Assembly: GCF_003347015.1 (NCBI RefSeq) | Contig: NZ_PNFB01000004.1 | Location: forward strand, 186,001 to 250,000 | DNA length: 64,000 bases | Reading direction: 5' to 3' | Source: Brachybacterium sp. YJGR34 | GTDB lineage: Bacteria; Actinomycetota; Actinomycetes; Actinomycetales; Dermabacteraceae | Part shown: positions 15,385-36,471 of the stretch, piece by piece | How positions within the stretch are numbered: the stretch's first letter is position 1 | How the letters are laid out: each line of letters opens with the position of its first letter | Translations under genes and position numbers: made by a program | Notes under the pieces: model-generated | Database searches by the model: none | What the model was told of the DNA's origin: nothing | What the model saw: the letters and a program-made list of their open reading frames with translations, nothing else

Positions 15385-15444
15385 ACAGCCAGTATGTGCA
15401 CAGGAAGGCCCTCAGTGAGGCCTTCCTGTGCACATACTGGCTGT
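15385..15444. terminator. Perfect 26-bp hairpin between convergent genes
   Basis: Arms 15385-15410 and 15419-15444 are exact reverse complements with an eight-base loop (CTCAGTGA). It lies between the MFS gene (ending 15313) and the oppositely oriented surface-protein gene (ending 15572), as expected for a bidirectional terminator. No T run follows either arm. Exact pairing over 26 bases is longer than a normal terminator stem, so it may also be a palindromic element. Confidence 0.65.
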
Positions 15445-17994: not shown

Positions 17995-19328
17995 ACCCGG
18001 CCCCCGGCGCCCGGCTGCGTCCCACGGGGCGCGGGATCGTCGTGCTCGTGGCCTGCCTGCTGCTGTGGGTGCTGGGGGACCTCACACGGGTGGTGCCCGC
18101 CCGCCAGGTCGCCGCCGGGCTGCTGCTCATGCTGGTCATCGGCGCGATCTCGATCGCCGTGTGCAGCATCGGGCTGCGACCGCGCCGCTCGCTGGTGGAC
18201 GACGCGGTGCCCGTCGGCGCCGTGGCCCGGGTGCAGCTCGAGCTGCTGGGCACGCCGTGGATCACCGTGGTGCCGCTGGGCCGCGGCGTGGTGCGCGAGC
18301 ACCTCCCCGAGGCGCTGGGCGGGCAGGGGGACCTGCCGATGGACCGGGCGATGCCGCACGTGCTGCGGGTCGCCCGTCGCGGCGCGCACCCGCTGGGGGC
18401 CTACAGCCTCATCGTCCGCGACGTGTTCGGGCTCTTCCACCTCCGCCGCACCCTGAACGACTCCCTGCAGATCACGGGCCTGCCCGTGATCGCCGAGATG
18501 TCCCCGGCGGCCGAGCGCGCCACCGGCATCGCCCGCGAGGACGCGCTCGGCACGGCGGCCGCCCCGGGCGTCGGGGAGATCGGCCCCATCGCCCGTCCCT
18601 ACGCCAGCGGGGACGACATCCGCCGCATCCACTGGCGGGCCAGCGCCCGCACCGGTCAGCTCATGACCCGCGAGGACGAGCCCGCCGCGGGGTTCAGCGC
18701 CGTGATCGTCCTGGACACCAGCCAGCGCGCGCACCCCTCCGCCGAGGTCGAGGACCGCCTCGTCTCCCACGCCGCGACGCTGCTCGAGTCCCTCGGGCTC
18801 AACGGCTGGGACGTGCGGATCCTCGACGCCTCCGGGGACGAGATCACCCGCAGCTCCCGCCGCCGCGGCATCCCCGGCCCCTCGCCGCTGGGCAGCGAGG
18901 CCGATGCCGTCGAGCGCCGCGCCTCCCTGCTCGCGCTCGCCGACGTCGCCTTCGACGACGACGCCTCCGGCGGGATCGGCCACGACCACGCCGCCGGGCA
19001 CACCGCGCTGGCGATCGCCCTGGGCCCGGATACAGGCGAGCCGTTCTCCGGGCTCGAGCTGGACCGCTTCGCGGGCCGCGCCACGCGCCGCACCGCCATC
19101 GCCGTGCGGTCCGTGCTCGCCGAGAGCGAGCAGAGCGCGCCCCGTCGCGCCCGTCGGCTGGAACCGGCCGACGCCCCCGACGGCGGCCGCGCCGAGCAGC
19201 TCGCCGCCGCGCGCGAGCAGCACACCCCCACCCGCAGCGAGCTCGGCGCCTGGACGCTCGTGCGCGGGACCACGGCCGACGCCCTCACCGACCTGCTCAC
19301 CGCTGCCCGGGAGGAGGAGCCCGCATGA
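17991..19328 (+). CDS. DUF58 domain protein
   Basis: A 445-residue protein starting at GTG 17991, overlapping the MoxR stop (GTGA). Two membrane helices occupy about residues 10-55. The DUF58 signature is near 200-225, where ARPYASGDDIRRIHWRASAR matches the family pattern of Asp, Arg and the IHW motif. The following 100 residues (VIVLDTSQRAHPSAEVEDRL) have a von Willebrand A-like fold with a DTS start of a metal site. The C-terminal 130 residues are variable. It probably works with the MoxR ATPase at the membrane. It ends in ATGA shared with the next gene. Confidence 0.9.
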   Translation: MNPAPGARLRPTGRGIVVLVACLLLWVLGDLTRVVPARQVAAGLLLMLVIGAISIAVCSIGLRPRRSLVDDAVPVGAVARVQLELLGTPWITVVPLGRGVVREHLPEALGGQGDLPMDRAMPHVLRVARRGAHPLGAYSLIVRDVFGLFHLRRTLNDSLQITGLPVIAEMSPAAERATGIAREDALGTAAAPGVGEIGPIARPYASGDDIRRIHWRASARTGQLMTREDEPAAGFSAVIVLDTSQRAHPSAEVEDRLVSHAATLLESLGLNGWDVRILDASGDEITRSSRRRGIPGPSPLGSEADAVERRASLLALADVAFDDDASGGIGHDHAAGHTALAIALGPDTGEPFSGLELDRFAGRATRRTAIAVRSVLAESEQSAPRRARRLEPADAPDGGRAEQLAAAREQHTPTRSELGAWTLVRGTTADALTDLLTAAREEEPA

Positions 19329-21859
19329 GCCCGCTCATGGGCCGCCCGCCGCTGGAGGGTCGCCACCTCACCGGCCGAGCCCTGCTGCTCCTGGTCGCCG
19401 TCGTGCTCTCCAGCGCCCCCGCCTCGCAGCTGCTGACCGGCTCCTCCTGGCTGCTGCTGACGCTCACCGCCGCCACCGCCGTGATCCTGGGCGGGCTCGC
19501 GCTGCGCCGCCTGGTCCGCCAGCAGGTGCTGGTCCCCGTGCTGCAGATGGGCGTGCTGCTGGTGCTCGTGCTCGTCCTCGAGCTCGCCGAGGATCTGATC
19601 CAGCTGGAGGACGGGCCGTTCGCCGCCCTCGCCGCCCAGGAACAGATCGTCCGGGTGGGGCTCGAGGAGCTCGCCGGGGGCCTGGCGCCGATGACCCTCG
19701 GCCCCAGCGCGACTGCCGTGGTGGTGCTGGTCATCGGGTTGATGGTGCTCCTGCTGGATGTCATGTTCCTGGACCTGGGCTGGCACACGCCCACCGCGCT
19801 GCTGCTGATCAGCTCGATCCTGCTGCCGGCCCTGCAGCAGCCCGCCGGCGGGCCCTGGTGGAACGTCTCAGCGCCCATGCTCGCCGGGGCGATGATCTTC
19901 GCCGCTCGCACCGTGCACTCCGATCCGCGCTACATCCAGGGGGATCGCCGGCCGCAGGCGGGACCGCTGACCGCCCCCGGTCGCACCCTGGGCGCGGCCG
20001 TGCTCTGCGTGGGGCTGGTCGCGGGGCTCACCCCGGGGCTCGCGAGCACCCTCCCGCAGCTCGCCCCGACCCGCATCGCGCTGAACATCGATGTGCTGAA
20101 CTCGTGGCAGAACCCCGGCGGATCGTCGCTGGGACCGGTGATGATCGACGACTCGGTCTCCGTGCGCCGCTCCCTGCTCCAGCAGGAGGAGGTCGAGGTG
20201 CTGCGCTACTCCACGACCGACCAGGACCCCTCCTACCTGCGGCTGCGCACCCTGAACACCTTCGACGGCGAGACCTACAGCGGCGGTGCCGAGTCCGAGC
20301 AGCCGCTGCTGGGGACGACCTCCTTCTCCGACGCCCGCACGGACGGGCAGAGCGTGGCCGGCTCCGCCGAGGACCTCGCCGAGACCACCGTCGAGATCAC
20401 CGACCTCGCCGGCAACCGTCTCCCCGTGCCCGAGAACATCCGCTCCGTCAGCGCTCCCGACCCGGCCCTGACCCGGGCGATGTCTGTGCAGCCCACCGAT
20501 GGGGAGGTGGCCCTCACCGGTGTCCCCGCCGGGCTCATCGGCCAGAGCTACACCGTGCGCACCGAGGAGAACCCCGCCACCGCCGAGCAGCTGCGCGCCG
20601 TGGACCCCGCCGCCTTCACGACCCCCTTCGACGACGGCTACACCTCGCGCGCGGAGGTGCCGCAGCCCGCCGCGGACCTCGCCGAGGAGCTCGCCGCGGA
20701 CGCCGGCGCCGAGACCGCCTACGACACCGCCATCGCCTACCAGGACTACTTCCGCAGCTCCTTCGCGTACTCGCTGACCGTCAACTCCCCGCCGGGCGAG
20801 GACCCCCTGGAGTCCTTCCTCGAGGACCGGATCGGCTACTGCGAGCAGTTCGCCTCCGCCTTCGCGCTGATGATGACCTCCCAGGGGTACCCCACCCGGG
20901 TCGCCATCGGCTTCACCGCCGGGGAGCAGGACGGCGGCGACTGGTCCGTGAGCTCGACCAACGCCCACGCCTGGCCCGAGGTGTGGTTCGGCCCCGAGCA
21001 CGGCTGGGTGCGCTTCGAGCCGACGCCGGCCGCCGCGGCCAACGGGGTCAGCGCCCCGGACCGCAGCGAGCCGGCCCCCGGCCAGGAGGAGCCCGCGCCG
21101 GAGACCGAGGAGTCCGCGCCGCCCGAAGAGGAGACCCCCGCCGAGGAGGAGGGGCCCACCGAGGAGCCCACCAGCTCCGAGGAGGCCGCGGCCTCCGACG
21201 CTGGCGGGACCCCGGTGCTCACCCAGGAGACCGCGCAGCGAGTGGAGGGCGGGCTGCTCAGCGCGCTCTCCCTGGGCGCGCTCGTCGCCGGCGGCGGAGC
21301 CGCCGCCGTGCTGCTGATCCGGCGCCGACGCCTGCGCGCCCGCGAGGAGCGCTGGGCCGCCCAGGCCGGCGGCGGCGCGGCACCGGGCACGGATGCCGCG
21401 GCCCGCGAGCGGCAGCGGCGCGGTGCGGGGGAGCTGGCCTGGTCGGAGATCGAGGGCGAGCTCGCCATCCGCCGAACCGCGATCCGCTGGCTGGGTGTCA
21501 CCGGTGCCTGGGGTCGCCCGCCGCGGGCGATCGGTCTGGACGGGGCGCTGCCCCCGGAGCGCGCGCTCGAGGACCTGCTCGACCAGATCGCCGCCGGCGA
21601 CCGCGAGGTGACCGCGGAGCATCACGCCGCGGCCGGTCGCATCGCCGCGGCGGTCTCCGCCGCCCGCTACGCCGCACCGGTGGTGGACGGGGGCGGCGTG
21701 GCCACGGAGGAGGCGCCGGGCGCTGAGGACGGAGCGGAGACCGGGCCCGTGCCGGGGGAGGGGGCTACACCGTCAGGGGCCGCCCCGACCGCCACCACGC
21801 AGCACCCCCTGCGGCGCGACAGCGACCTGATCATCCACCTGCTCCGCGCCGCGCGGTGA
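19325..21859 (+). CDS. Transglutaminase-like membrane protein (TgpA type)
   Basis: An 844-residue protein with about six N-terminal membrane helices (to about residue 240), a large extracytoplasmic domain, a transglutaminase core, an acidic Pro/Glu linker (about 580-640), one more membrane helix and a cytosolic tail. Catalytic Cys506 is in DRIGYCEQFASAF, His548 is in TNAHAWPE, and the third position falls in WVRFEPTP, where Glu replaces the more usual Asp. The reaction could be proteolysis or cross-linking of wall proteins. It is the last gene of the MoxR-DUF58-TgpA operon; all three junctions are ATGA or GTGA overlaps, so the proteins are probably made in fixed ratio. Confidence 0.9.
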   Translation: MSPLMGRPPLEGRHLTGRALLLLVAVVLSSAPASQLLTGSSWLLLTLTAATAVILGGLALRRLVRQQVLVPVLQMGVLLVLVLVLELAEDLIQLEDGPFAALAAQEQIVRVGLEELAGGLAPMTLGPSATAVVVLVIGLMVLLLDVMFLDLGWHTPTALLLISSILLPALQQPAGGPWWNVSAPMLAGAMIFAARTVHSDPRYIQGDRRPQAGPLTAPGRTLGAAVLCVGLVAGLTPGLASTLPQLAPTRIALNIDVLNSWQNPGGSSLGPVMIDDSVSVRRSLLQQEEVEVLRYSTTDQDPSYLRLRTLNTFDGETYSGGAESEQPLLGTTSFSDARTDGQSVAGSAEDLAETTVEITDLAGNRLPVPENIRSVSAPDPALTRAMSVQPTDGEVALTGVPAGLIGQSYTVRTEENPATAEQLRAVDPAAFTTPFDDGYTSRAEVPQPAADLAEELAADAGAETAYDTAIAYQDYFRSSFAYSLTVNSPPGEDPLESFLEDRIGYCEQFASAFALMMTSQGYPTRVAIGFTAGEQDGGDWSVSSTNAHAWPEVWFGPEHGWVRFEPTPAAAANGVSAPDRSEPAPGQEEPAPETEESAPPEEETPAEEEGPTEEPTSSEEAAASDAGGTPVLTQETAQRVEGGLLSALSLGALVAGGGAAAVLLIRRRRLRAREERWAAQAGGGAAPGTDAAARERQRRGAGELAWSEIEGELAIRRTAIRWLGVTGAWGRPPRAIGLDGALPPERALEDLLDQIAAGDREVTAEHHAAAGRIAAAVSAARYAAPVVDGGGVATEEAPGAEDGAETGPVPGEGATPSGAAPTATTQHPLRRDSDLIIHLLRAAR

Positions 21860-21903: not shown

Positions 21904-21972
21904 CGATCAGTGTCGGTATACGGACAGGCAGCGCGTATAGGGGCCTGCCTGTCCGTATTCCGCCACTGATCG
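21904..21972. repeat. Palindromic element, copy A (28-bp arms)
   Basis: Arms 21904-21931 and 21945-21972 pair at 26 of 28 positions around a 13-base loop. The left arm starts CGATCAGTGTCGGTATACGG; 18 of these 20 bases recur in the left arm of the element at 30044. It sits between the convergent ends of the transglutaminase operon and the NADH dehydrogenase gene, so it may act as a two-way terminator, but the shared arm sequence suggests a repeat family. Confidence 0.75.
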
Positions 21973-22060
21973 TCACGGGTGCCGCCGGGGACCGCTGCCA
22001 TGACGCCGTCGGGGCCCCGTGCGCGTCCGTGGTGGCGCGGGCCTGGCGACCGGCGCGCGC

Positions 22061-23506
22061 TCAGTCCTTCGTGGGCTCCGCGACGGAGGCGGCGCCCTCG
22101 GCCCGCGCGGCGGCACGGACGGAGGAGCGGTCCCCGGCGCCGGCGCCCTTGCCGAAGCGTCGGCGGGCGGCCTGCTCCTCGAACACCCGCGCGGCGCGCA
22201 GCGAGTCGACCTCGCCGACCACGGGGTTCGGCTGGTGGGTGGCGCGGGTGCCGCCGTAGAGGGAGATCAGGTTCATCGCCACCGCGCGCTGGTTGCGGTG
22301 GCCCATCATCTTGGTGATGTGCACGCCCAGCCAGGCGGCCCAGCCGATCGAGCCCTCGAGGCCTCCGATGCCGGGGATCTGCGCGATCGCGGCGTGCCGG
22401 CCGATGGTCGCCATGGTGCCCAGGTCGGTGTACTTGAAGGGCTTGCGCGGCGTGCCGGCGACCTCCGCGGCGATCGCCTGGGCCGCGGCCTGGCCGGTCT
22501 GGATCGCCGGCTGGGCGAGCTGCGGGAGCGGCTCGTCCTGGCCTGCGACGTCTCCGGCGGCGTACACCCCGGGGAATCCCTTGACCTGCAGGTACTCGTC
22601 CACGGAGAGGCGGCCGCGGCGGTCCTGCGGGAAGCCCCAGCGGGAGACCTTCTCCGGGATCGCGACGCCCGCGGCCCAGATCGTGATGTCGGACTCGAGC
22701 ACGGAGTCGTCGTCGAGGATGACGTGGTCGTAGCCCACTTCCTTCACGCCGCGGCCCAGGCACAGCGTCACCCCGCGCTCCTCGAGCTCCGCGGCCGCGT
22801 ACTCGCGGTGCTTGGGGCTGAACTCCTTGATCAGCTCACCGCCGCGCTGCAGCACGGTGACCTGCAGGGTGCCGGGGTCCATCTCGGGGTAGAGGATGTC
22901 CAGCTCCTGCATCCGGAAGTCCGCCAGGGCACCGGCGATCTCCACCCCCGTCGGCCCGCCGCCGACGATGCAGACGTTCAGCCGGTCGTGCGAATGCAGC
23001 TGCTCGCGGCTGGAGCGCTCCAGCTCCGAGAAGATCCGGTCGCGGATCGCGAGGGCCTGGGAGCGGGTGTACATCGGCATCGCGTGCTCCTCCGCGCCGG
23101 GAGTGCCGAAGTAGGTGGTGGTCGCGCCGTTGGCGACGATCAGGTAGTCGTAGGACAGCTCCTGGATGCCCTTCTGCCCCTCGTCCATGCGGACCACCTT
23201 GCGCTCGGGGTCCACGCCCTCGATCTCGCCCTGGCGGTAGCGCATGTTGGGGACCTTCAGCGAGAGCCCGCGCAGGAACATCGTGACGTCCCCCGGGTTC
23301 AGGCCGGCGGTGGCGACCTGGTACAGCAGCGGCTGGAAGGTCTTGTAGACGTTGCGGTCGATGAGGGTCACGCGCACGCGCGCGTCCCGCAGGGCCGTCA
23401 CGGCGTGCGCCCCGGCGAATCCGCCGCCGAGGATGATCACGTGCGGCCAGCTCGCGCCGTCCTTCGCGGGGACGGTGGGGCGGCGGCTGAGGAACGGCAT
23501 GGCCAT
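22061..23506 (-). CDS. ndh: Type II NADH dehydrogenase
   Basis: A 481-residue flavoprotein of the NDH-2 family. It oxidises NADH and passes electrons to menaquinone without pumping protons. The N-terminal FAD fold has ILGGGFAGAHAV (about residue 25), the NADH-binding fold has GGGPTGVEIAGAL (about 190), and the FAD-closing motif is VYAAGDVAG (about 320). The last 100 residues contain a hydrophobic stretch (GSIGWAAWLGVHITKMMG) that would bind the membrane. The ATG at 23506 is chosen because AGGAG lies eight bases upstream; longer in-frame starts lack this. Nothing is coupled to it downstream. Confidence 0.9.
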   Translation of the reverse strand: MAMPFLSRRPTVPAKDGASWPHVIILGGGFAGAHAVTALRDARVRVTLIDRNVYKTFQPLLYQVATAGLNPGDVTMFLRGLSLKVPNMRYRQGEIEGVDPERKVVRMDEGQKGIQELSYDYLIVANGATTTYFGTPGAEEHAMPMYTRSQALAIRDRIFSELERSSREQLHSHDRLNVCIVGGGPTGVEIAGALADFRMQELDILYPEMDPGTLQVTVLQRGGELIKEFSPKHREYAAAELEERGVTLCLGRGVKEVGYDHVILDDDSVLESDITIWAAGVAIPEKVSRWGFPQDRRGRLSVDEYLQVKGFPGVYAAGDVAGQDEPLPQLAQPAIQTGQAAAQAIAAEVAGTPRKPFKYTDLGTMATIGRHAAIAQIPGIGGLEGSIGWAAWLGVHITKMMGHRNQRAVAMNLISLYGGTRATHQPNPVVGEVDSLRAARVFEEQAARRRFGKGAGAGDRSSVRAAARAEGAASVAEPTKD

Positions 23507-24041
23507 GACGAGGACTCCTGGGTCGACGGGGTGGCGGCCGGGTCGCGGCGCGGGGTGGACCAGGTCGTGCACCCATCCGGGTGGGGAGGGGCGGCGGGCG
23601 GAGCGGGCTGCGGGCGGTGCCCGGGGATCCCGGGAGGGGCCGAGGTCATCGGGGCCGCGACCCGCTCGGCGGCGGGACGCCGGGCCCGTCCGAAGTCCCT
23701 GCCGATGCTACCCATTCCGGGGTCGAGCGGGAACCGCGCCGCCGCCCCGGGCCCACCTCGTGACTGGCGCCGAGGGAGCCGCGATGCCCCGGGGCGACGC
23801 GGGTAAGCGTTCGCCGGTGACCGGGGTCTCGTCGTCGTCGGTGCGAGCGACAGGGGCGGGTCAAGGGCGGGCAAAGCGGTCGCCGAGAAAGTGTCATCAC
23901 CGAGGGGCTGGTCACAGTCCCGGGTGAACAGCTGGTGACGGGAGGCGGCCGGGACGGGGAAGTCGCGGGCGCGCACCCTCCCCGATGGGCTGAGATGGAG
24001 GCATCCCACCCCCGCAGGCCCCTCGCCCCAGGAGCTCCTCC
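23507..24041. other. Divergent regulatory gap between ndh and the 5'-nucleotidase gene
   Basis: About 535 bases with no convincing gene; the translated frames are low-complexity Arg/Pro/Gly. It must hold both promoters. The only feature I can point to is the pair of direct repeats at 23923-23940. Confidence 0.5.
23923..23940 (-). promoter_or_regulatory. PhoP-box-like direct repeats
   Basis: GGTGAAC and GGTGACG are spaced 11 bases apart. On the minus strand they read CGTCACC, four bases, then GTTCACC, which resembles the 11-base direct repeats bound by PhoP in Streptomyces. The site is about 100 bases before a secreted 5'-nucleotidase gene, a typical phosphate-starvation gene. Only two units are present and one deviates, so this is tentative. 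Confidence 0.3.
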
Positions 24042-26543
24042 ATGCCCGCCTCCTCCTCCCGACGCCTCGCGCACCGGGCCTCCGCCGGCCTCGGTGCCGC
24101 GGCGCTCGCCCTCGCCGGGGTCGCCGTCCCGCTCGGTGCCGCGCACGCCGCCGATCCCGGCGACGAGGTCACGCTGCTGGCCTTCAACGACTTCCACGGC
24201 GCGCTCGACGCCGGTGACGCCTTCGCCTGCACCGTGACGGGGCTGCGGGCCCAGCACCCGAGCTCGGTGCTGATCTCCGCCGGGGACAACGTCGGCGGCA
24301 GCGCCTTCGCCTCCGCCGTCGCGAACGACGAGCCGACCATCGACTTCCTCAACGCGCTGGGCGTGGACGCGGGCGCGATCGGCAACCACGAGTACGACCA
24401 GGGGCTCAGCGACCTCACCGAGCGCATCGCGCCGGGCACCGACTTCCCGGACCTGGCCGCGAACGTCTATGCGGCCGACGGCACCCGCGTCCACGATCCC
24501 TACGCGATCGTCGAGGCCGACGGGGTCCGAGTGGCCGTGGTGGGAGCGGTGACCACCAAGACCGTCGGCAAGGTCTCCCCGGCCGCGATCGAGGGCCTGA
24601 CCTTCGGCGACCCGGTGGAGGGAGTCAACGACGCGGTCGCGGAGCTCGAGGCCTCCGGCGAGGAGTACGACGTCCTGGTCGCCTCGTACCACGAGGGGGC
24701 CAGCGGCAGCGGGGAGGCCGGCGCCGCCCCGACGAACTCCGATCCGATCTTCGACTCGATCGTCGAGGGGACCTCGCCCGAGGTCGACGCGATCCTGGGC
24801 GGTGACTCCCACCAGAGCTACGCCTACCACGCCCCGGTGCCCGGCCAGGACGGTGAGGTGCGCCCGATCGTGCAGACCGGTGCGAGCGGCGAGGCCCTGG
24901 GTGCCATGACGCTGGCCCTGGGCGAGGACGGCGACTGGGACGTGGTCGAGGGCGGCACCGCGCTGCACCCCACGGAGTCCGCGGATCTCGGTGCCTGTGC
25001 CGGGGACGAGACCTATGAGGCTGCCGCGGGGGTGGCCGAGCAGGCGCTCGCCGATGCCGAGGTCGCCGGCTCCGTGCCCGTCGGCTCCGTCGCCGGGGAC
25101 ATCACCACCTCCTGGGACTCCTCCGTCGCCGAGTACGAGGACGGCGCGCGCGTCCCGCGCTCCCCGGTCAGCGACCAGGCCTCCACCAAGGGCGATGACC
25201 GCTCCCGGCACTCCGCCGCCGGCTCGATGCTCGCCGATTCGATGGCCTGGTATCTCGACGAGCGCGGGACGGCGGGCGACTCCGAGGTCATCGGCTTCAT
25301 GAACCCCGGCGGCATCCGCGCCGAGCTGTGGGAGGAGGCCGCCGGCGGCGAGGGCGACGGCGTGGTCACCTACGCCGAGGCCAACTCGATGGTGCCCTTC
25401 GGCAACACCCTGAACACCGGCGAGGTCACCGGCGCCCAGTTCGAGCAGATGCTCGAGGAGCAGTGGCAGCGCGACGGGAGCGGGGCGCCCACCAGCGAGT
25501 TCCTCGCCTTCAGCGTCTCCGAGAACGTCGAGTACGTCTACGAACCCAGCCGCGAGGTGGACGACCGCATCCTCGAGATCCGCATCAACGGCGAGAGGAT
25601 CGACCCGGAGGCCACCTACACGATCGTCACCGCCAGCTTCCTCTTCGAGGGCGGCGACAACATGTGGGCTCTGTCCGAGGCCACGAACGTGCAGGACACC
25701 GGCGTGCTGGATCGCGACGCCTTCGTCGAGTACCTCGGCGCGCACGAGGACCTGGCCCCCGACTTCTCCCAGCGCCAGCTCGAGCTGCAGGTCCTCGAGG
25801 CCGGCGAGTACGACGCCGAGGCCGGCGTGGACACCGATCCGGTGCTGCGCCTCGGCGGGCTGGAGTCCCCGAGCCTCGGCGCCCCGGAGATCACGAGCGT
25901 GGTCCTGGACGCCGGTGAGCACGGCACCTTCGAGGCTCCCTACGACGTGGTCGAGGACTCCGGGGAGCTCGCGGCCGACGTCACGCTCGAGGACTGGCTG
26001 TGCGTGCCCGAGGGCACCGAGGTCCCGGTGAGCATCACCGCGGTCCCGGACACCGGCACCGACATCGTCCTCGACATCCCGTCCTTCACCTGGACCGCCG
26101 GCGGCGCCCCGGAGGACTGCGGGGACGACCAGGGCACGGAACCCCCGGCCGAGGGCGACGAGGAGACCACGCCCCCGCCCGCCGAGGGTGATGACGAGGG
26201 GACCACGCCCCCGCCGGCCGAGGACGAGGGGACCACACCCCCACCCGCCGAGGGCGACGACGAGGGCACCTCGCCCCCGCCGGCCCAGGACGACGACGAG
26301 GGCGCCACCCCGCCGGCGGCCGATGGCGACTCGGGCACCACCCCGCCCCCGGCCGACGACGACGCCGCCCTGCCGGCACCCGCGCCCGAGGCCGAGGACC
26401 CCGCCGGTGACGACACCGCCGCGGGCTCCGAGAGCCTCGCCCGCACCGGCGCGACGGTCTGGCCCCTCGCCGCGGCGGCCGGTGCGCTGGCCCTCGCCGG
26501 CGCCGCGGCCCTGGCGCTGCGCCGGCACCTGCGCCGCCGCTGA
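24042..26543 (+). CDS. Secreted, LAXTG-anchored bifunctional metallophosphatase / 5'-nucleotidase
   Basis: An 833-residue exported enzyme. The signal peptide ends at AAHAA (about residue 36). The metallophosphatase domain has FNDFHG, SAGDNVGG, GNHEYDQG and GGDSHQS, all metal ligands of the dinuclear site. The 5'-nucleotidase C-terminal domain has MNPGGIRAEL and SFLFEGGDNM, which bind the nucleoside. A Pro/Asp/Glu stalk of TPPPAEGDDEG-type repeats (about 700-790) leads to LARTG, a hydrophobic segment and an Arg-rich end. It should dephosphorylate extracellular nucleotides on the wall surface to supply phosphate and nucleosides. AGGAG at 24030-24034 supports the ATG. A strong hairpin follows the stop. 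Confidence 0.92.
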   Translation: MPASSSRRLAHRASAGLGAAALALAGVAVPLGAAHAADPGDEVTLLAFNDFHGALDAGDAFACTVTGLRAQHPSSVLISAGDNVGGSAFASAVANDEPTIDFLNALGVDAGAIGNHEYDQGLSDLTERIAPGTDFPDLAANVYAADGTRVHDPYAIVEADGVRVAVVGAVTTKTVGKVSPAAIEGLTFGDPVEGVNDAVAELEASGEEYDVLVASYHEGASGSGEAGAAPTNSDPIFDSIVEGTSPEVDAILGGDSHQSYAYHAPVPGQDGEVRPIVQTGASGEALGAMTLALGEDGDWDVVEGGTALHPTESADLGACAGDETYEAAAGVAEQALADAEVAGSVPVGSVAGDITTSWDSSVAEYEDGARVPRSPVSDQASTKGDDRSRHSAAGSMLADSMAWYLDERGTAGDSEVIGFMNPGGIRAELWEEAAGGEGDGVVTYAEANSMVPFGNTLNTGEVTGAQFEQMLEEQWQRDGSGAPTSEFLAFSVSENVEYVYEPSREVDDRILEIRINGERIDPEATYTIVTASFLFEGGDNMWALSEATNVQDTGVLDRDAFVEYLGAHEDLAPDFSQRQLELQVLEAGEYDAEAGVDTDPVLRLGGLESPSLGAPEITSVVLDAGEHGTFEAPYDVVEDSGELAADVTLEDWLCVPEGTEVPVSITAVPDTGTDIVLDIPSFTWTAGGAPEDCGDDQGTEPPAEGDEETTPPPAEGDDEGTTPPPAEDEGTTPPPAEGDDEGTSPPPAQDDDEGATPPAADGDSGTTPPPADDDAALPAPAPEAEDPAGDDTAAGSESLARTGATVWPLAAAAGALALAGAAALALRRHLRRR

Positions 26544-26548
26544 CCCCC

Positions 26549-26584
26549 GCGCCGCCGACGCCCCCGCCCGGCCGTCGGCGGCGC
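26549..26584 (+). terminator. Hairpin terminator after the 5'-nucleotidase gene
   Basis: Twelve-base arms GCGCCGCCGACG (26549-26560) and CGTCGGCGGCGC (26573-26584) pair exactly around a 12-base C-rich loop. It begins six bases after the stop codon. No T run follows. Confidence 0.6.
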
Positions 26585-26716
26585 ACGACCTGCCCGCCGG
26601 CGGTGCGGGTGGGGCGTCGGCCGGGCGCGTCGGCCCGCCCCGGCGCGAGGGCGAGCAGGGACAATGACGACCGGGCGGTGCTCGCTCCCTGCACGGACCT
26701 CGACGAACGGACCTCC

Positions 26717-28102
26717 ATGACCGCTTCCCCCGCCCCTGCCGGCGGCGCGCTCGCGCGCCGGCTCGGCCTGCGCGACGCCGTGGTGATCGGCCTGGCCTCG
26801 ATGATCGGCGCGGGCGCCTTCGTCTCGCTCGGCGCCGCCGTGGAGCTCGCCCGATGGCTCGCACCGCTCGCGGTGCTGATCGCCGCCGGGGTGGCCCTGT
26901 GCAATGCGACCTCGAGCGCGCAGCTGGCCGCCCAGCACCCCAGCTCCGGCGGCACCTACCACTTCGGCCGCGAGCAGCTGGGCCCCTGGTGGGGATTCCT
27001 CGCCGGGTGGTGCTTCGTGATCGGCAAGACCGCCTCCTGCGCGGCCATGGCCCTGGTCATCGCCGCCTACCTGGTGCCCGAGGGTCTGCAGCGACCCGTC
27101 GCCGCGCTCGCGGTGGTGGTGCTCACGGGCGTGAACCTGGTGGGCATCACACGCACCGCCGCGCTCGCCCGGGTGCTGGTGACCATCGCGCTCGGCGCGC
27201 TGGTGCTGACCGGGGTCCGGCTGCTGGTGGGCCTTCCGGGGGTCGAGGCCGAGGCGGGGCCTGCGGACGCGACGTTGGGTGGCCCGGCGTACAGCACACC
27301 GGTTCTCCTCTGGGACCGAGGGCTGGCGGGAGCGCTCGACGCATGGGCCGGCGGCCCCCTGGGCGTGGCGCTCGCCGTCGCGCAGGCCGCGGCGCTGATG
27401 TTCTTCGCCTTCGCCGGCTACGCCCGCGTGGCGACCCTGGGGGAGGAGGTCGTCGAACCGCGGCGCACCATCCCGCGAGCGATCCTGCTGGCCCTCGGCA
27501 TCGTGACGGTGCTCTACCTGGCGCTGTCCGTGGTGCTGGTCCAGCTCCTGCCCGCCCTGAGTGTCGGGGGCTGGGGTCCGGCGCCCTTCCTCACCGCGCT
27601 GGAGATCGTGGGCGCGGGGGCGCCGTGGCGCGTGATCATCACCGTCGGGGCGGTCGCCGCGGCCGCCGGTGCGCTGCTCGCCCTCATCGCCGGCATCTCC
27701 CGCACCACTCTCGCCATGGCCCGCGAGCGCGATCTGCCCCCGGTCCTCGCCCACGTGGATCCCGCCCGCTCGGTGCCGCAGCGCGCGGAGCTCGCCGCCG
27801 GGATCGCCATCGTGCTCATCGTCCTGCTGGCCCCGGACGTGCTCACCGCGATCGCGGCCTCCTCCTTCGGCGTGCTGCTCTACTACGCGATCGCGAACCT
27901 CTCCGCCTTCACCCAGCGCGCGCCGTGGCGGCTGTACCCCAAGGCGATGCAGGTGATCGGCGTGGTGAGCTGCGTGCTGCTGGTGGCCTCGCTGCCCGGG
28001 CGCACGATCGCGGCCGGGGTGGCGCTGCTGGCGGTCGGCGTGGCGTACCGGGGCGTGGTGCTGTGGCGCCGCCGGTCCCGCGAAGGTGCCCCCAACGCGT
28101 AA
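26717..28102 (+). CDS. APC-family amino acid/polyamine permease
   Basis: A 461-residue membrane transporter with about twelve hydrophobic helices. The first helix has GLASMIGAGAFVSLG, the glycine-rich helix-break motif of amino acid permeases of the APC superfamily, and AGYARVATLGEEVVEPRRTI near residue 235 is the conserved loop. It probably imports or exchanges an amino acid or amine; the substrate is not evident. Charged residues between helices are few. The ATG at 26717 has only a weak ribosome site (GGACC), but the hydrophobic core starts about 20 residues later as in relatives. The ArsR-type gene begins 38 bases downstream behind its own control region. Confidence 0.85.
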   Translation: MTASPAPAGGALARRLGLRDAVVIGLASMIGAGAFVSLGAAVELARWLAPLAVLIAAGVALCNATSSAQLAAQHPSSGGTYHFGREQLGPWWGFLAGWCFVIGKTASCAAMALVIAAYLVPEGLQRPVAALAVVVLTGVNLVGITRTAALARVLVTIALGALVLTGVRLLVGLPGVEAEAGPADATLGGPAYSTPVLLWDRGLAGALDAWAGGPLGVALAVAQAAALMFFAFAGYARVATLGEEVVEPRRTIPRAILLALGIVTVLYLALSVVLVQLLPALSVGGWGPAPFLTALEIVGAGAPWRVIITVGAVAAAAGALLALIAGISRTTLAMARERDLPPVLAHVDPARSVPQRAELAAGIAIVLIVLLAPDVLTAIAASSFGVLLYYAIANLSAFTQRAPWRLYPKAMQVIGVVSCVLLVASLPGRTIAAGVALLAVGVAYRGVVLWRRRSREGAPNA

Positions 28103-28113
28103 GTCTTGACTTA
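28100..28113. promoter_or_regulatory. Operator-like palindrome before the ArsR-type gene
   Basis: TAAGTC and GACTTA are inverted around a two-base centre. They sit 27 bases before the ArsR-type start and touch a plausible -10 (TATATG at 28113-28118). ArsR-family repressors often bind such sites in their own promoters. The local AT content is unusually high for this window. Confidence 0.5.
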
Positions 28114-28140
28114 TATGTGGGAGGCGGGGAGCATGGCGCC

Positions 28141-28536
28141 ATGCACGCGCTCGACGTCCTGGGGGACCCGGTGCGGCGGAGGATCCTCGAGCTCCTCGCC
28201 GACGCCGGGGAGCTCAGCGCCGGCGAGCTCGGGGAGTCGGTGCAGGAGGAGTTCGGCATCAGTCAGCCGGCCGTCTCCCAGCACCTGCGCGTCCTGCGCG
28301 ATCACGGCTTCACGCAGGTCCGGCCGGAGGGCCGGCGCCGGCTCTACTCCCTCGACGCCCGCGGTCCGCAGGAGGCGGAGCAGTGGCTGAGCGCCTTCGA
28401 GCGCTTCTGGCTGCCGCCGCTGGACGCCCTGGGCACCGAGCTGGCCCGCGGTCGCCGGGAGCGGCGGCTCGCGGCCGAGCGTGCACAGGACCCCGACCCC
28501 ACCACCGCATCACCACCACCGAGCAAGGAGGCCTGA
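28141..28536 (+). CDS. ArsR-family winged-helix repressor
   Basis: A 131-residue protein. The winged helix-turn-helix spans about residues 5-80, with GDPVRRRILELL, a recognition helix in ISQPAVSQHLRVLRDHGF and a wing in RPEGRRRLYSLD. The metal-binding ELCVCD motif of arsenic sensors is absent. It therefore fits the ArsR subgroup that pairs with SRPBCC/AHSA1 proteins rather than metal sensors. GGGGAG at 28126-28131 supports this ATG over the one eight bases upstream. The SRPBCC gene starts one base after its stop, so they form an operon probably controlled by the palindrome at 28100. Confidence 0.85.
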   Translation: MHALDVLGDPVRRRILELLADAGELSAGELGESVQEEFGISQPAVSQHLRVLRDHGFTQVRPEGRRRLYSLDARGPQEAEQWLSAFERFWLPPLDALGTELARGRRERRLAAERAQDPDPTTASPPPSKEA

Positions 28537-28537
28537 C

Positions 28538-29200
28538 ATGGTCGACGTCCCCCGTCAGCTGCAGTCCGTCACCCGTTCGATCCGCACCGAGGACCACGAG
28601 GGCGAGCCCTCGCACATCCAGACCCTCGAGCAGACCTACCCCGCCCCGCTCGAGGACGTCTGGGAGGCCGTCACCACCGCCGAGCGCATCGCCCGCTGGT
28701 TCCTGCCGATCACCGGCGAGCTCGAGGAGGGCGGCAGCTACCAGCTCCAGGGCAATGCCGGCGGCACCGTCCTGGAGTGCTCCCCGCCGGCCGACGGCGC
28801 CGCCGAATACCGCGTGACCTGGGAGTTCGATGGCAACGTCACCTGGGTGACGATCCGCCTCGCTGCCGAGGGCGAGCAGACCCGCTTCGAGCTCGAGCAC
28901 ATCTCCCGCGCCTCGGACATCCCCGAGGGCATGTGGGACTCCTTCGGCCCCGGCGCCACCGGCGTGGGCTGGGACGGCGGCCTGCTGGGCCTGGGCCTGC
29001 ACCTCGGCGCCACCGAGGGCTCCCTGTCCCCGGGCGAGGCCGAGGCCTGGGCCGGCACCGAGGAGGGCCGCTCCTTCTACCGCGGTGCGGCCGACGGCTG
29101 GGCCGTGGCCCAGGTCGCCGCGGGCGAGGACCCCGAGGTCGCCCAGCGCAAGGCGGACGCCACCTACAACGCCTACACCGGCGCCGAGCCGGAGGCCTGA
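28538..29200 (+). CDS. SRPBCC (START-like, AHSA1-type) domain protein
   Basis: A 220-residue protein starting at ATG 28538, behind AAGGAGG. The SRPBCC fold is shown by LEQTYPAPLEDVWEAVTT near residue 30, the WFLPITGELEEGG turn, and a final helix. Such domains make a hydrophobic cavity and bind lipids or other ligands. The C-terminal 40 residues (SFYRGAADGWAVAQVAAGED) extend the last helix. Paired ArsR and SRPBCC genes are common; the SRPBCC partner may bind the signal or carry out the response. It converges with the methyltransferase gene, six bases away. Confidence 0.82.
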   Translation: MVDVPRQLQSVTRSIRTEDHEGEPSHIQTLEQTYPAPLEDVWEAVTTAERIARWFLPITGELEEGGSYQLQGNAGGTVLECSPPADGAAEYRVTWEFDGNVTWVTIRLAAEGEQTRFELEHISRASDIPEGMWDSFGPGATGVGWDGGLLGLGLHLGATEGSLSPGEAEAWAGTEEGRSFYRGAADGWAVAQVAAGEDPEVAQRKADATYNAYTGAEPEA

Positions 29201-29206
29201 TCGCCC

Positions 29207-29965
29207 TCAGACCGCCCGGGCGATGACCACGAACTCGCGGCCCGGGCGGTCCGGCGCCTGCCGGATCTCCCGGGTCTCGAAGCCCGCCGAACTCAGGGCA
29301 TCCCGCAGCTCCTGCTCCTCGCGGAAGCGGAGGGTCACTCTCGAGTCGACGACCGCGCCGCCGTCGAGATGGAACTCCTCGGTGAGCGTCACGATCGGCC
29401 AGTCCACCTCGACGCCCAGCGGGTGTTTCCGCACCCGTCCTGTGCCCGGCACCTCGTAGATCTCGTCCTCGATCGCCGCGGACCACTCCTCCCAGGCCCG
29501 CGCGGCAGGGCGACGGGCCTCGAACACCAGGTGCCCGCCCTCGCGCAGCGCCGCGCGGATCGCCCGCAGCGTCGAGGCCCAGGCCGCGTCGGTGAGGAAC
29601 ACCTGGGCGACGTTCCCGGTCATCACCGCGGCATCGGCCCCGGGCCCACCGCCCGCCCCGGGCGCCGACAGGTCCTCGGCAGTGCCGTGGAGCCAGGTCA
29701 CGCGCTCGGCACCCGGCTTCGCGCGGGCCACCTCGAGGGAGGCGGATGCGGGGTCGATGCCCGTCACCGCGACGCCCCGTGCGGCGAGCCGCAGGGAGAG
29801 CGAGCCGGTCCCGCAGCCCACGTCGATCACGGAGCGGGCCCCCAGCTCGTCCAGGATCTCCTCGTAGTGATCGAGGTCGTCGCGCTCGCCGTCGAGAGTG
29901 TCGTAGCAGGCGGCGAGGCGGGGATCGGCGTAGAGCGGCTCGGGCGCGGGGTGCAGCGGGGTCAT
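29207..29965 (-). CDS. Class I SAM-dependent methyltransferase
   Basis: A 252-residue methyltransferase. Motif I is VIDVGCGTGSLSLRLA near residues 46-61, followed by VTGIDPA (motif II, acidic end of strand 2) and a motif IV-like region VMTGNVAQVF. The N-terminal DPRLAACYDTLDGERDD resembles small-molecule or ubiquinone/menaquinone-type methyltransferases, but the substrate is unknown. The ATG at 29965 has TACGGT six bases upstream and no ribosome site, so the longer upstream frame is rejected. Confidence 0.85.
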   Translation of the reverse strand: MTPLHPAPEPLYADPRLAACYDTLDGERDDLDHYEEILDELGARSVIDVGCGTGSLSLRLAARGVAVTGIDPASASLEVARAKPGAERVTWLHGTAEDLSAPGAGGGPGADAAVMTGNVAQVFLTDAAWASTLRAIRAALREGGHLVFEARRPAARAWEEWSAAIEDEIYEVPGTGRVRKHPLGVEVDWPIVTLTEEFHLDGGAVVDSRVTLRFREEQELRDALSSAGFETREIRQAPDRPGREFVVIARAV

Positions 29966-29971
29966 GCCGTC

Positions 29972-29977
29972 ACCGTA
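29972..29977 (-). promoter_or_regulatory. -10 element of the methyltransferase gene
   Basis: TACGGT on the minus strand, six bases before the ATG at 29965. Confidence 0.45.
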
Positions 29978-30043
29978 GGCGGCACGGCGCTCCGCGGCCC
30001 ACCGGTTTTCCGCCGACGGCCGCACCGCTCCCCGAACCGGTGA

Positions 30044-30112
30044 CGATCAGTGTCGGAATGCGGCCACCCTGCGCGATATACGCGCTGCTCGGCCGTATGA
30101 CGACAGTGATCG
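30044..30112. repeat. Palindromic element, copy B (22-bp arms)
   Basis: Arms 30044-30065 and 30091-30112 pair at 18 of 22 positions. The 25-base centre holds its own small stem, GCGCG and CGCGC around ATATA. The left arm CGATCAGTGTCGGAATGCGG differs from copy A at two of 20 positions. It lies between two minus-strand genes, after the end of the 30164 gene and before the methyltransferase promoter. Confidence 0.7.
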
Positions 30113-30163: not shown

Positions 30164-30859
30164 TCAGGCCAGACCGGTCCAGGTGGTGTCGGCGTCGATG
30201 AGCCAGTGGTTGCGCAGAGTGAGCGCCCGCTCGGTGGCCGCGAGAGCGCCCGCCACCAGCAGCGCCCCGTTCGCCCAGGCCGGCAGGCTGAGCGGGGAGG
30301 TGAAGGGATCGACATGGTCGGCGACCAGCTCGAGATGCGTGACCAGCTCGACCAGCTGCGGCACCGCCACCACCAGCCCCACCAGCAGCACCACCACCGC
30401 GATCGCGCCGATCGCCCGGCTCGCGGCGGGGAAGCGCCGGCCGAACCGCGCCCGCCACCCCTCGAGCGTGCGCGGATGCGGGGTGAGCGCGCGGGCGGGG
30501 CCCTCGACGGGGACGTAGTGCATGCGGGTCATCCCGTACAGGTTCCTCGCCACCTCCAGGTGGCCGCCGGCGACGGGGAAGGCGGCCGGAGGGTTCGCGC
30601 GGGCCACCTGGACCCCGTCGCGGTACAGCGCCACCGGGGGCATCTCGTCGGAGTCCGAGGTGCTGTCGTCCAGCGAGAGATCGTCGGCGAGGTGGTGCAC
30701 GTCGACCGTCATGCGGTGCATCGCGCCGTCGGCCTCCGGGAGGTCGAGGACGAACAGCGAGCGATGGAAGAGCTGCCAGAAGCGGTAGTCCCTCAGCGCG
30801 CTGTCGTCACCCGGGCGCACCCGGCGCTCCCGGCGTCGCCGCCGGTGGGTCTCGAACAT
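30164..30859 (-). CDS. Hypothetical membrane protein
   Basis: A 231-residue protein I cannot assign to a family. The N-terminus is very basic (HRRRRRERRVR), the middle holds a beta-rich region with DGVQVARANPPAAFPVAGGH, and two hydrophobic segments lie near residues 146-170 and 196-215. The topology suggests a cytosolic domain anchored by a helical hairpin. The ATG at 30859 is well supported by GGGAGG. It stands alone; the gene upstream on the same strand is the flavin oxidoreductase. Confidence 0.65.
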   Translation of the reverse strand: MFETHRRRRRERRVRPGDDSALRDYRFWQLFHRSLFVLDLPEADGAMHRMTVDVHHLADDLSLDDSTSDSDEMPPVALYRDGVQVARANPPAAFPVAGGHLEVARNLYGMTRMHYVPVEGPARALTPHPRTLEGWRARFGRRFPAASRAIGAIAVVVLLVGLVVAVPQLVELVTHLELVADHVDPFTSPLSLPAWANGALLVAGALAATERALTLRNHWLIDADTTWTGLA

Positions 30860-32431: not shown

Positions 32432-32437
32432 GGTCTG

Positions 32438-32443
32438 ACGCTA
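32438..32443 (-). promoter_or_regulatory. -10 element of the flavin oxidoreductase gene
   Basis: TAGCGT six bases before the start, with GTGACG 17 bases further upstream as a possible -35. Confidence 0.5.
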
Positions 32444-32477
32444 CGCCGCCGATGCCGTGTCGTCACGGGGCGACGAC

Positions 32478-33047
32478 TCACTGTCGCCGAAGGTGCGTCC
32501 GTGCGGCCTCCCAGAGCGCATCGGCACAGCACTCCGGCGCATCGTCTGATCCCGTGCGGAGGACTCTCGACGGTGACAGCAGGTCACGAAGGGCGATGGC
32601 GTCCGAGCGTGCACTGGCAACAGTGGCCTCGGGTTCTTGGCGATGCCGGAGCCGATCAGCCCGTGTCGCGTCGTCGACCTCCCAGCCGATGAGCGTCCCC
32701 TTCTCCGGTGCTGGGAGGCTGTCCGGCACCTGCGTCAGCAGAACCATGTCGAATCCAGCCCGGGTGACGAACCCAGCGATGCGATCCCAGAGCCGGTCGT
32801 AGGCGGGCCAGATCGGCGCCGCGGACGGATCGGCGATCCGGACGCCCAGCAGGGAGCCGCTTTCGAGCACTTCGTCGATGTCAGCCACCACGGCGTGGCC
32901 CCGGGCGCGAGCGATCAGGTGGGGGAGGACTGTCGACTTTCCCGTGCCGGGCGGAGCGGCGATGCAGACGAGCGCACCTCCACGGCAACGCAGATCGTCC
33001 ACAGCAGTGACCTCTCGAGGGAAAGCGGCGATGTCTCGGGCCAGCAT
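32478..33047 (-). CDS. P-loop kinase-like ATPase
   Basis: A 189-residue protein with a Walker A motif APPGTGKST near residues 31-39 and an aspartate in VVADIDEVLE that could be the Walker B or substrate base. FDMVLLTQVP and the Arg/Asp run RADRLRHRQEP have the look of a small nucleotide or nucleoside kinase. I cannot assign the substrate. Start: the ATG at 33047 has only a poor -10 (CACGAT, five bases upstream). It is one of two small P-loop proteins in this minus-strand run (see 35898). Confidence 0.6.
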   Translation of the reverse strand: MLARDIAAFPREVTAVDDLRCRGGALVCIAAPPGTGKSTVLPHLIARARGHAVVADIDEVLESGSLLGVRIADPSAAPIWPAYDRLWDRIAGFVTRAGFDMVLLTQVPDSLPAPEKGTLIGWEVDDATRADRLRHRQEPEATVASARSDAIALRDLLSPSRVLRTGSDDAPECCADALWEAARTHLRRQ

Positions 33048-33119
33048 GCCGAATCGTGCCTCGAATCGCGACCCATCAACGGATGCTTCAGACGGCGCGC
33101 CATGTGCTGCCGATGATGC

Positions 33120-33485
33120 TCAGAGGTTCTGAGGGGTCGAGGGATCCGGTACGAGACTGATGGGGAGCCCGGACACCGTGCACGCGACGGCGATGGCGCC
33201 GGTAATGACACCTGCAACGGCCCACACCCTTCTGGTTTGCCGAGTCAGGAGTCCGATCGTGCCGAGCCCGAGCGCCAGAAGTGCACAGATGAGTCCGGGA
33301 GCCGGAGCGAGGAGCGCGATTCCGTCGAACATCACCGGGTGTCCGTTGCGGACGCGGAGTGCGTGTCTCTCGGCAACCACCAGTTGTCCCCACAGCATGA
33401 GAGCGATCCCGATACCGCCCGCGGTGGTCGACATGACGCCGAAGATGTCGGCGGCACGTGAGGTGATCGAGCGGCTGGATCCCAT
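33120..33485 (-). CDS. Small hypothetical membrane protein
   Basis: A 121-residue protein with three hydrophobic segments (about residues 18-35, 52-80 and 88-105) and Arg-rich loops between them. No family is recognised. The -10 six bases before the ATG argues that this is a real gene. Confidence 0.55.
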   Translation of the reverse strand: MGSSRSITSRAADIFGVMSTTAGGIGIALMLWGQLVVAERHALRVRNGHPVMFDGIALLAPAPGLICALLALGLGTIGLLTRQTRRVWAVAGVITGAIAVACTVSGLPISLVPDPSTPQNL

Positions 33486-33491
33486 CCATCC

Positions 33492-33497
33492 ACCGTA
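33492..33497 (-). promoter_or_regulatory. -10 element of the 33485 gene
   Basis: TACGGT on the minus strand, six bases before the ATG at 33485. Confidence 0.4.
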
Positions 33498-33545
33498 CTC
33501 AGGTGCCGGACCCGGCCTGCGCCAAGACGGGTTCTCTGCGCCCGA

Positions 33546-34265
33546 CTACGCCGGTGTTTGCCAGCAAGCCGGTAGCGGTGTGGGTCCGAGCTCGCGCGGA
33601 GGAACCCATCGACTCCAGTCCTCGCGCGTCACCTCGCTGTCGTGCTCGAGCGAATCGACGAGAGTCTGTCCGACCTGACGGATGCCCTCAGCCTGCTCGG
33701 TCGAGTAGACCCCCTGACTGATGAACCACTCCAGTTCGTCGTCGTCCTTGAGGCGCACAGTCCAGTCAGAAGTGCCAGGCGACCCCTCTGCTACGACATC
33801 GAGTGTCCAATCCTGGGTGTCATAGCCCATTGCTGTTCGCTTCCACGGGGCCTCGAGGTTGCCATACCAGGTCTGATTCCACTGGTGGCCATCGTGGAAG
33901 CGCCAGATAGACCAGCACTGCCCTCGGCGATGCACCCTCGCGACGCTCTCGCCGTCCCAGATGCCCAGTTCATACGCACCCTTCCATTGAGAGTGAATAA
34001 TGTTGCGACCTCGGGGCCCTCCTCGTGCTCCTGTTCGGGCAGCCTTCCCCGACCCCGAAATCGACGCGACCACAATGGCGTCGTCGTCGTCTCGGAGGAC
34101 AACCCCGGAGACGGCGAAACCCACCGCTTCGCCGCGTCCCTCCACTGGCTCAATGCTCCGGAGCACCACCGTGCTGCCTACTGGGTGCGGACCAACCTCG
34201 AGTCCGTCGTTGAGCGCCTGCGAGGCACGAGGCACGCTGGTTTCATCTACGTCATTGTCGGCCAT
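33546..34265 (-). CDS. DUF402 domain protein
   Basis: A 239-residue protein. Its C-terminal half fits DUF402: WYGNLEAPWKRTAMGYDTQ followed by DWTLDVVAEG and the acidic stretch LKDDDELEW, the Asp/Glu residues that in related proteins bind metal and nucleotide phosphates. DUF402 members include nucleoside di- and triphosphatases and a phosphonate-pathway hydrolase, so a phosphohydrolase role is likely but inferred. The ATG at 34265 is preferred over the GTG at 34286 because TACGTT lies six bases before it. The base composition here is AT-richer than the window average. A second DUF402 gene is at 39629. Confidence 0.68.
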   Translation of the reverse strand: MADNDVDETSVPRASQALNDGLEVGPHPVGSTVVLRSIEPVEGRGEAVGFAVSGVVLRDDDDAIVVASISGSGKAARTGARGGPRGRNIIHSQWKGAYELGIWDGESVARVHRRGQCWSIWRFHDGHQWNQTWYGNLEAPWKRTAMGYDTQDWTLDVVAEGSPGTSDWTVRLKDDDELEWFISQGVYSTEQAEGIRQVGQTLVDSLEHDSEVTREDWSRWVPPRELGPTPLPACWQTPA

Positions 34266-34271
34266 GTAGGC

Positions 34272-34277
34272 AACGTA
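34272..34277 (-). promoter_or_regulatory. -10 element of the DUF402 gene
   Basis: TACGTT six bases before the ATG at 34265; it decides between two possible starts. Confidence 0.4.
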
Positions 34278-34333
34278 CCCGGCCACGCTTCATAGTGATC
34301 CAACAACGGTTCTCTCGGAGCCAGCGGCTCGGC

Positions 34334-35312: not shown

Positions 35313-35319
35313 GGGCAGG

Positions 35320-35325
35320 ACCCTA
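35320..35325 (-). promoter_or_regulatory. -10 element of the LD-carboxypeptidase gene
   Basis: TAGGGT seven bases before the ATG at 35312. Confidence 0.4.
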
Positions 35326-35464
35326 TCTACGGCGCGTCCAGGACGCTCCGCACACAGGGCGGCGGCCACGGAGGCACGATGCCACGCGCGCGAGCGTTGT
35401 ACTGGTCGCCCCGCGATCGCTGGTGACGAACGGGCCCGCTGCGCCATGAACTGTCGTCGATGGA

Positions 35465-35812: not shown

Positions 35813-35818
35813 CGGGCG

Positions 35819-35824
35819 AGCGTA
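35819..35824 (-). promoter_or_regulatory. -10 element of the ParB-like gene
   Basis: TACGCT six bases before the ATG at 35812. Confidence 0.4.
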
Positions 35825-35897
35825 CCGATGCGGCCCCGGGATCGACGACCAATTGTGGCTCCCGGCCAGCAGGGTTTCCTTTCGCAGCCGTGCCTGT

Positions 35898-36422: not shown

Positions 36423-36428
36423 CCCGGC

Positions 36429-36434
36429 AACCTA
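36429..36434 (-). promoter_or_regulatory. Promoter of the small kinase gene
   Basis: TAGGTT six bases before the ATG at 36422, with GCGACA (36452-36457, minus strand) 17 bases further upstream as -35. This is one of the clearest promoters in the window. Confidence 0.5.
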
Positions 36435-36471
36435 TCGCCGGCCGGAGCCCCTGTCGCCGTGAACAGTGCAG

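Follow-up and report, generated by a model that had tools for sequence, protein, structure and literature searches.

A 69-bp intergenic palindrome family in Brachybacterium, one of several, resembles REPINs and prefers gene 3′ ends

Two intergenic palindromes of 69 bp lie in a 64,000-nucleotide stretch of the Brachybacterium sp. YJGR34 genome (contig NZ_PNFB01000004.1, positions 186,001 to 250,000; hereafter, the window): copy A at 21904..21972 and copy B at 30044..30112, neither assigned to a strand. Both belong to a repeat family, family 1, which has at least 16 copies in this genome and is one of several such hairpin families in Brachybacterium. At some places, the conserved gene ends of different species hold dissimilar palindromes. 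On balance, and with some reserve, we favor the view that family 1 is a population of miniature, noncoding, nonautonomous hairpin repeats that resembles REPINs (repetitive extragenic palindromic [REP] doublets forming hairpins) but is without their partner, the REP-associated tyrosine transposase (RAYT). The copies would be kept behind genes, where they may act as bidirectional terminators or insulators.

Family 1 has a fixed length and conserved ends in its own genome

Copy A is a palindrome of the form CGATCAGTGTCGG...CCGCCACTGATCG flanked by convergent genes, and copy B is flanked by two minus-strand genes, 51 bp past the stop codon of the upstream one. An earlier note on this DNA, made from the sequence alone, had described both elements at these positions, and direct comparison bore it out. 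The two are each 69 bases long and agree at 18 of the left 20 bases, as the note had counted, as well as at 16 of the right 20 and at 48 of 69 overall. Each keeps the internal palindrome attributed to it, in imperfect form (self-complementary position pairs, 27 of 34 in copy A and 24 of 34 in copy B). The small stem drawn in the center of copy B is also predicted by DNA folding; for the plus strand, the predicted energies were −30.4 kcal/mol for copy A (z = −10.5) and −25.5 kcal/mol for copy B (z = −5.4), and no shuffle out of 200 did as well for either copy. The differing gene contexts were recovered by our own simple codon-based gene finder, which supplied all gene calls in this study in place of curated annotation. 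Rfam 15 covariance models gave two matches (E up to 5) between positions 21000 and 31000 of the window, none of them on copy A or B.

A whole-genome search answered the reservation in the earlier note that these two copies might be the only ones. In the genome that contains the window (G000; 3.99 Mb, assembled in 44 contigs), the arm GATCAGTGTCGG had 36 matches with at most one mismatch, compared with 3 for the reversed control. Of these matches, 20 fall in 11 palindromes; the other 16 are single arms, every one of them mismatched. A covariance model (R1, from alignment A1) built from 11 G000 copies detected at least 16 strong places (≥62.9 bits on the better strand), a lower bound because 150 of 3,167 first-look candidates were scored. 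Among the weaker places, three belong to a second family, described below, and one more (E = 0.18) lies inside a gene.

All 16 copies are exactly 69 bp long and align without gaps across 75 columns. The end hexamers CGATCA and TGATCG are the same in every one of the 16 copies. The mean identity of two copies is 0.91 for either outer arm and falls through the middle stems (0.81 and 0.74) to 0.50 for the core and to about 0.35 for the flanks; substitutions occupy 22 of 384 arm positions compared with 99 of 272 core positions. Similarity thus drops sharply at the edge of the 69-bp unit, and the flanks are unrelated. The three bases just outside the unit are weakly alike (identity, 0.50 and 0.53), and an outward-reading CGTC accordingly marks at least one end of 13 of the 16 copies (left end, 8/16; right end, 7/16); it was found in 0 of 25 elements from other species. 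GTAG within 12 nt of an end was found in neither set (0/16 and 0/25). Columns 10 and 66, each occupied by C or G, are complementary in just 10 of the 16 copies. Every family 1 copy in G000 lies at least 8 kb from the next on the same contig. At the right end of one copy (locus L040, contig position C39:105212), the last bases of the right arm recur immediately outside the unit (CACTGATCGCACTGATCGC), which may be a relic of slippage or insertion.

Copies lie mostly behind genes in G000 and other genomes

All 16 family 1 copies in G000 are intergenic. Together with 51 copies from the loci of other genomes, they comprise 29 copies between convergent genes, 33 between tandem genes, and 5 between divergent genes, compared with a background of 18%, 53%, and 29%, respectively, of the intergenic base pairs in 320 kb of genome G015. 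Three of the divergent placements are in G000. Among the tandem copies, 30 of 33 lie closer to the upstream stop codon, and the median distance to the nearest stop is 56 in G000 and 63 in the other genomes. The compared genomes represent one per species, and, with sites inherited from common ancestors, the cross-species counts are not independent.

We also took a census of palindromes of any family (span of ≥40, score of ≥14) in gaps of 70 to 1,200 bp, pooled over five genomes. Long palindromes occupied 38 of 105 convergent gaps, 26 of 412 tandem gaps, and 2 of 216 divergent gaps, in a pool that includes windows picked for known copies or orthologous to such windows; one shuffle per gap yielded none. 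In G030, whose windows were chosen without regard to palindromes (at even intervals or near the expected origin), the corresponding counts were 8 of 14, 3 of 72, and 0 of 39.

Brachybacterium genomes carry several palindrome families

The second family is represented in the window by a near-perfect 60-bp palindrome at 15385..15444 (no strand assigned), formed by CCAGTATGTGCACAGG and its inverse, with half-sites 36 bases apart. Across G000, CCAGAATRTGCACAGG and its inverse (≤2 mismatches) gave 13 half-sites at 7 places, compared with 0 for the reversed control, and all six complete pairs are exactly 36 nt apart. Genome G018 has a family of its own (≤3 mismatches) with 10 half-sites, six of which form three complete pairs, each spaced 34 nt, and four of which are unpaired; its reversed control gave 1. 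Sampling of 800 kb of G015 yielded 51 intergenic palindromes, of which 25 fall into six families, so that at least six are present, with unit lengths of about 50 to 87 bp. Sampling of 464 kb of G000, including the window and several stretches picked for known copies, yielded 21 intergenic palindromes: six of family 1, two of family 2, and 13 single. One further G015 locus (L179:8432-9153) contains a repeat array, whose units include part of a palindrome arm (CTCGTATCCACTGGCGTC in some), adjoining a complete element that sits behind a gene conserved in G014.

The exact G000 arm had no match among GTDB genomes, and the commoner arm of the genus (CATCCASTGGCG type) occurred on five contigs among the named GTDB genomes, all Brachybacterium; in both cases, the own genome and very near ones possibly lie outside the search. 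A genus-level model (R2; 20 sequences) matched 25 of 36 Brachybacterium genomes, the own genome included, and 2 of 22 other genomes, weakly (E = 0.0017 and 0.008). Because R2 was built from R1 hits in these same genomes, it misses very different families; G018 received no R2 score despite its own family. The strongest copy had no match in plasmid or phage collections, and a plasmid- or phage-borne element was rejected on this ground. In the accessible portion of the literature on Brachybacterium repeats and on actinobacterial REP sequences and RAYTs, a coverage that most subscription journals lie outside, we found no description of these elements.

Conserved gene ends hold dissimilar palindromes at some places

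To follow individual gene ends between species, we compared G014 with its close relative G015 (97% protein identity in fumC, a name that, like phoH below, we presume from the translations by eye and not from a family search). Nine of 16 G014 sites were compared, and seven of them had a matching G015 stretch. At two of these seven, the G015 palindrome has no detectable similarity to that of G014. Behind the gene of locus L108, G015 carries a palindrome of another family than G014 does. At the place of L105 (L188:1719-6549 in G015), two near-identical palindromes of a further family stand around a 4.7-kb stretch, and G014 has a single family 1 palindrome dissimilar to them. By eye, the 4.7-kb stretch resembles a sugar catabolism island.

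The gene end at copy A was compared more widely. The left neighbor of copy A (19325..21859, plus strand) has its stop 44 bp from the element, and a homolog of this gene is the convergent partner at 12 other species' loci. The right neighbor (22061..23506, minus strand) is convergent with it and encodes a putative type II NADH dehydrogenase, a name that does not come from a family search. Among the 30 loci of copy A's gene, R2 matched in the own genome only, besides a weak hit at L167 (E = 0.013). A direct search (score of ≥12, span of ≥40) behind the stop codon, possible in 27 loci since three of the 30 are unreadable there, found a palindrome in 10, the own genome counted. BLAST among those 10 (E = 0.01) joined G016 with G029 and, weakly, G021 with G028, so that they form 8 groups. 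The same convergent partner is present at 13 loci, five of which have such a palindrome (G000, G002, G015, G020, and G021), and no two of these five palindromes are similar.

Behind fumC, 10 of 30 loci had an R2 match near the end of the gene, and an eleventh had one at an E value of 0.09. The palindromes behind this gene in G000, G017, G018, and G058 are, by eye, unlike the commoner arm. In 19 of the 30 loci, the best palindrome is short (18 to 44 bp) and was not counted as a member. At L093, L094, L096, L101, and C41:6270-7445 of G000, the gap behind fumC and/or phoH has a palindrome on either side of variable cargo, which is often a DUF559-like gene, and the arm families differ among species.

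Mobility and likeness to known repeats

No target site duplication was found in the flanks of the 16 copies for lengths of 2 to 9 bp at offsets of 0 to 4; the lowest value, in one of 40 settings, was reached in 10 of 500 shuffles. No two of the 36 arm matches in G000 lie close together except within the 69-bp palindromes, and no parental transposon with the same ends was seen, in a 44-contig assembly that may break a repeated element. A DUF559 (Vsr-like) nuclease, considered because it occurs between palindromes at the fumC-phoH locus, was rejected as a general partner: of the 27 places at which the family was found in 8 genomes, 5 have a listed palindrome within 2 kb, and every one of these belongs to that locus. 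Two further DUF559-like frames, not among the 27, were noticed near palindromes by eye or by DNA similarity (L103 and L106).

The closest likeness is to REPINs, described in the accessible portion of Bertels and Rainey 2011 (PMC3116915) as conserved inverted ends at a fixed distance around a hairpin spacer whose length matters. The Brachybacterium elements share the two inverted, conserved ends, the fixed distance, the less conserved hairpin-forming spacer, the extragenic location, and the presence of several groups per genome. They differ in having no detected RAYT or Y1 transposase (0 of 38 genomes) and no GTAG near their ends, in strongly preferring convergent gene ends, and in number, with at least 16 copies of family 1 compared with the 430 REP doublets given in that portion of PMC3116915. 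The REP-like label of the earlier note accordingly holds for the conserved ends, fixed spacing, and variable spacer but not for the transposase, the GTAG tag, or the copy number. Because no enzyme was found, we class the elements as REPIN-like and not as REPINs.

GTAG- and CGTC-tagged palindromic repeats, as described in the accessible portion of PMC3733652, are likewise intergenic palindromic families present several to a genome, and the outward CGTC of the G000 copies may add to the likeness in that genome alone. Their units measure 20 to 40 bp, however, in contrast to the 69 bp of family 1 and the roughly 50 to 87 bp of the G015 families; the main text of PMC3733652 makes no mention of Actinobacteria, Brachybacterium, Micrococc-, or Streptomyces. 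The earlier note had also suggested miniature inverted-repeat transposable elements, and family 1 does resemble these as short, noncoding units with inverted ends, discrete and dispersed in unrelated flanks. It departs from them in having no target site duplication, no visible parental element, and almost no interior.

Copy B lies between two minus-strand genes at 30164..30859 (upstream, with the stop 51 bp away noted above) and 29207..29965 (downstream, with its start 78 bp away). Farther along the window, a stretch of 6.7 kb at about 32432 to 39134 holds only two weak genes according to the codon-based finder and is possibly foreign or oddly composed DNA.

Discussion

In the account that we favor, the unit would consist of two near-invariant inverted ends, each about 13 bp long, that enclose a variable spacer and stand a fixed distance apart, and would fold into a 69-nt hairpin. 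A trans-acting enzyme, which would be no recognizable RAYT or Y1 transposase, may recognize these ends, probably in a hairpin that is extruded or single-stranded, and copy the unit elsewhere. Copies would then persist almost only behind genes, where they may be harmless or may be useful as bidirectional transcription barriers between convergent genes. If lineages renew their families, as we propose, conserved slots would end up holding unrelated palindromes.

Several observations weigh against this account. No mobilizing enzyme was found: the RAYT partner that the earlier note had suggested looking for was ruled out, since the profile PF01797 was detected neither in the own genome nor in any of 38 Brachybacterium genomes (E up to 0.001), compared with 5 of 14 control genomes. 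No clean insertion event was seen either, and the sole near-identical pair of copies, in G013, was rejected as proof of transposition; it is a segmental duplication, because identity continues past the element into both flanks. Five of the seven comparable G014 sites carry the same element in G015, with the outer arms largely kept and the core either kept (L106 and L111) or changed (L107, L109, and L119), so that movement would be slow at best. The copy number, 16 at least, is far below that of typical REPs, which usually exceed 100 copies per genome according to the accessible portion of PMC2817692, and family 2 occupies 7 places. Length varies in some species: G014 elements span 74 to 92 bases, and the alignment of one of them to its counterpart in G015 contains a 12-base gap. 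Finally, inner-stem complementarity in G000 equals that obtained by random redealing of the right halves (154 versus 154.0), and complementarity of the outer blocks is slightly above it (234 versus 227.4; reached in 140 of 5,000 shuffles). Within G000, the halves are thus conserved as sequences, a result that does not favor a hairpin read as structure alone. Across species, compensatory change occurred in 17 of 21 pairs, but that alignment mixes arm dialects.

The palindromes could instead be primarily bidirectional terminators or insulators, held at gene ends by selection for termination and alike through occasional copying or conversion. We regard this explanation as rather unlikely. Confinement to 3′ ends agrees with it, both in the convergent excess and in the nearness of tandem copies to the upstream stop, as do the conservation of positions between G014 and G015 and the dissimilar palindromes that different species hold behind the same gene. 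Like intrinsic bidirectional terminators, the elements are hairpins shortly behind stop codons, convergent ones especially, and the 15 G000 copies folded with 3-nt flanks form predicted RNA hairpins of about −30 to −67 kcal/mol. Unlike such terminators, they have no T tract (T makes up 0.113 of the 12 nt that follow; 91 gene-strand ends), and the three G000 copies between divergent genes are not expected of them. The conservation of the arms would also exceed what a bare hairpin needs. Folds of −22 kcal/mol or lower, a cutoff of our own choice, lie between the stop codon and the element at 56% of 62 ends, with 29 further ends left out as too near or too far, compared with 40% of 116 other gene ends and 20% before starts, and the stop-to-element folds are stronger than those behind other genes (rank test, P = 0.003). 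Many elements thus stand behind another hairpin. The related idea that the elements stand in for ordinary hairpins was rejected, as such folds are commoner here, not rarer, than behind other genes. The contrast that the earlier note had drawn with ordinary terminators therefore stands as regards the T tract but not as regards position; because the preference for gene 3′ ends is strong, the elements may have a role in termination or insulation.

Inverted DNA uptake sequences in Neisseriaceae act as terminators. They resemble the present elements as hairpins behind genes and in the lineage dialects of a repeated motif (dialects are described in the accessible portion of PMC3630211). Uptake sequences number in the hundreds to thousands, in contrast to the few copies here, where 20 of 36 arm matches are in palindromes and all 16 singles are mismatched.

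A bolder extension of the account that we favor would have several unrelated mobile hairpin families, rapidly replaced and moved by an enzyme outside the Y1/RAYT group, share the same slots interchangeably and supply many of the bidirectional transcription barriers of these genomes. We consider this extension rather unlikely.

It is improbable that the outer arms are half-sites of a DNA-binding protein acting in chromosome organization or looping, with the palindrome as its operator and with arm changes that track the protein. The arms are near-invariant at fixed spacing in 16 of 16 copies, and the G000 halves are conserved as sequence and not through compensatory change. In addition, in five closed chromosomes in which dnaA was located (G002, G014, G015, G022, and G030), 58 of 60 listed R2 hits fall within the 60% nearest the origin, a count that includes sites shared by descent more than once and omits the closed genomes with hits G004 and G021, where dnaA lies outside the windows, and G020, where it was not sought. 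Against an operator stand the several dissimilar families per genome and the lack of a candidate protein. For palindromes of any family, the gaps near the terminus held 0 of 37 in G015 windows, compared with 35 of 233 elsewhere, but G030 windows showed no such depletion (5 of 21 versus 6 of 65); the pooled P value was 0.39, and terminus avoidance was rejected as a general rule.

It is highly improbable that islands use the palindromes for attachment or recombination, with cargo between two of them at some places. The 4.7-kb G015 stretch, flanked on either side by one of two near-identical palindromes at a place with only one, dissimilar palindrome in G014, would fit this idea, and so would the fumC-phoH gap of G002, G004, and G015, in which variable cargo lies between two palindromes. 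However, the 16 family 1 copies in G000 stand apart at the wide spacing given above, the DUF559 nuclease genes found by profile near palindromes are limited to one locus, and each bounding palindrome is also at a gene 3′ end, so that it is explained without recombination.

REPIN-type repeats are thought to depend on RAYT transposases. REPIN-like hairpins in genomes without a detectable RAYT would imply either that another enzyme mobilizes them or that the repeats are maintained for a cellular job. The second idea can be tested because conserved gene ends are filled interchangeably: should any palindrome serve, the slot would matter and not the sequence. For genome annotators, the finding means that large hairpins at gene ends in Brachybacterium can be repeats.

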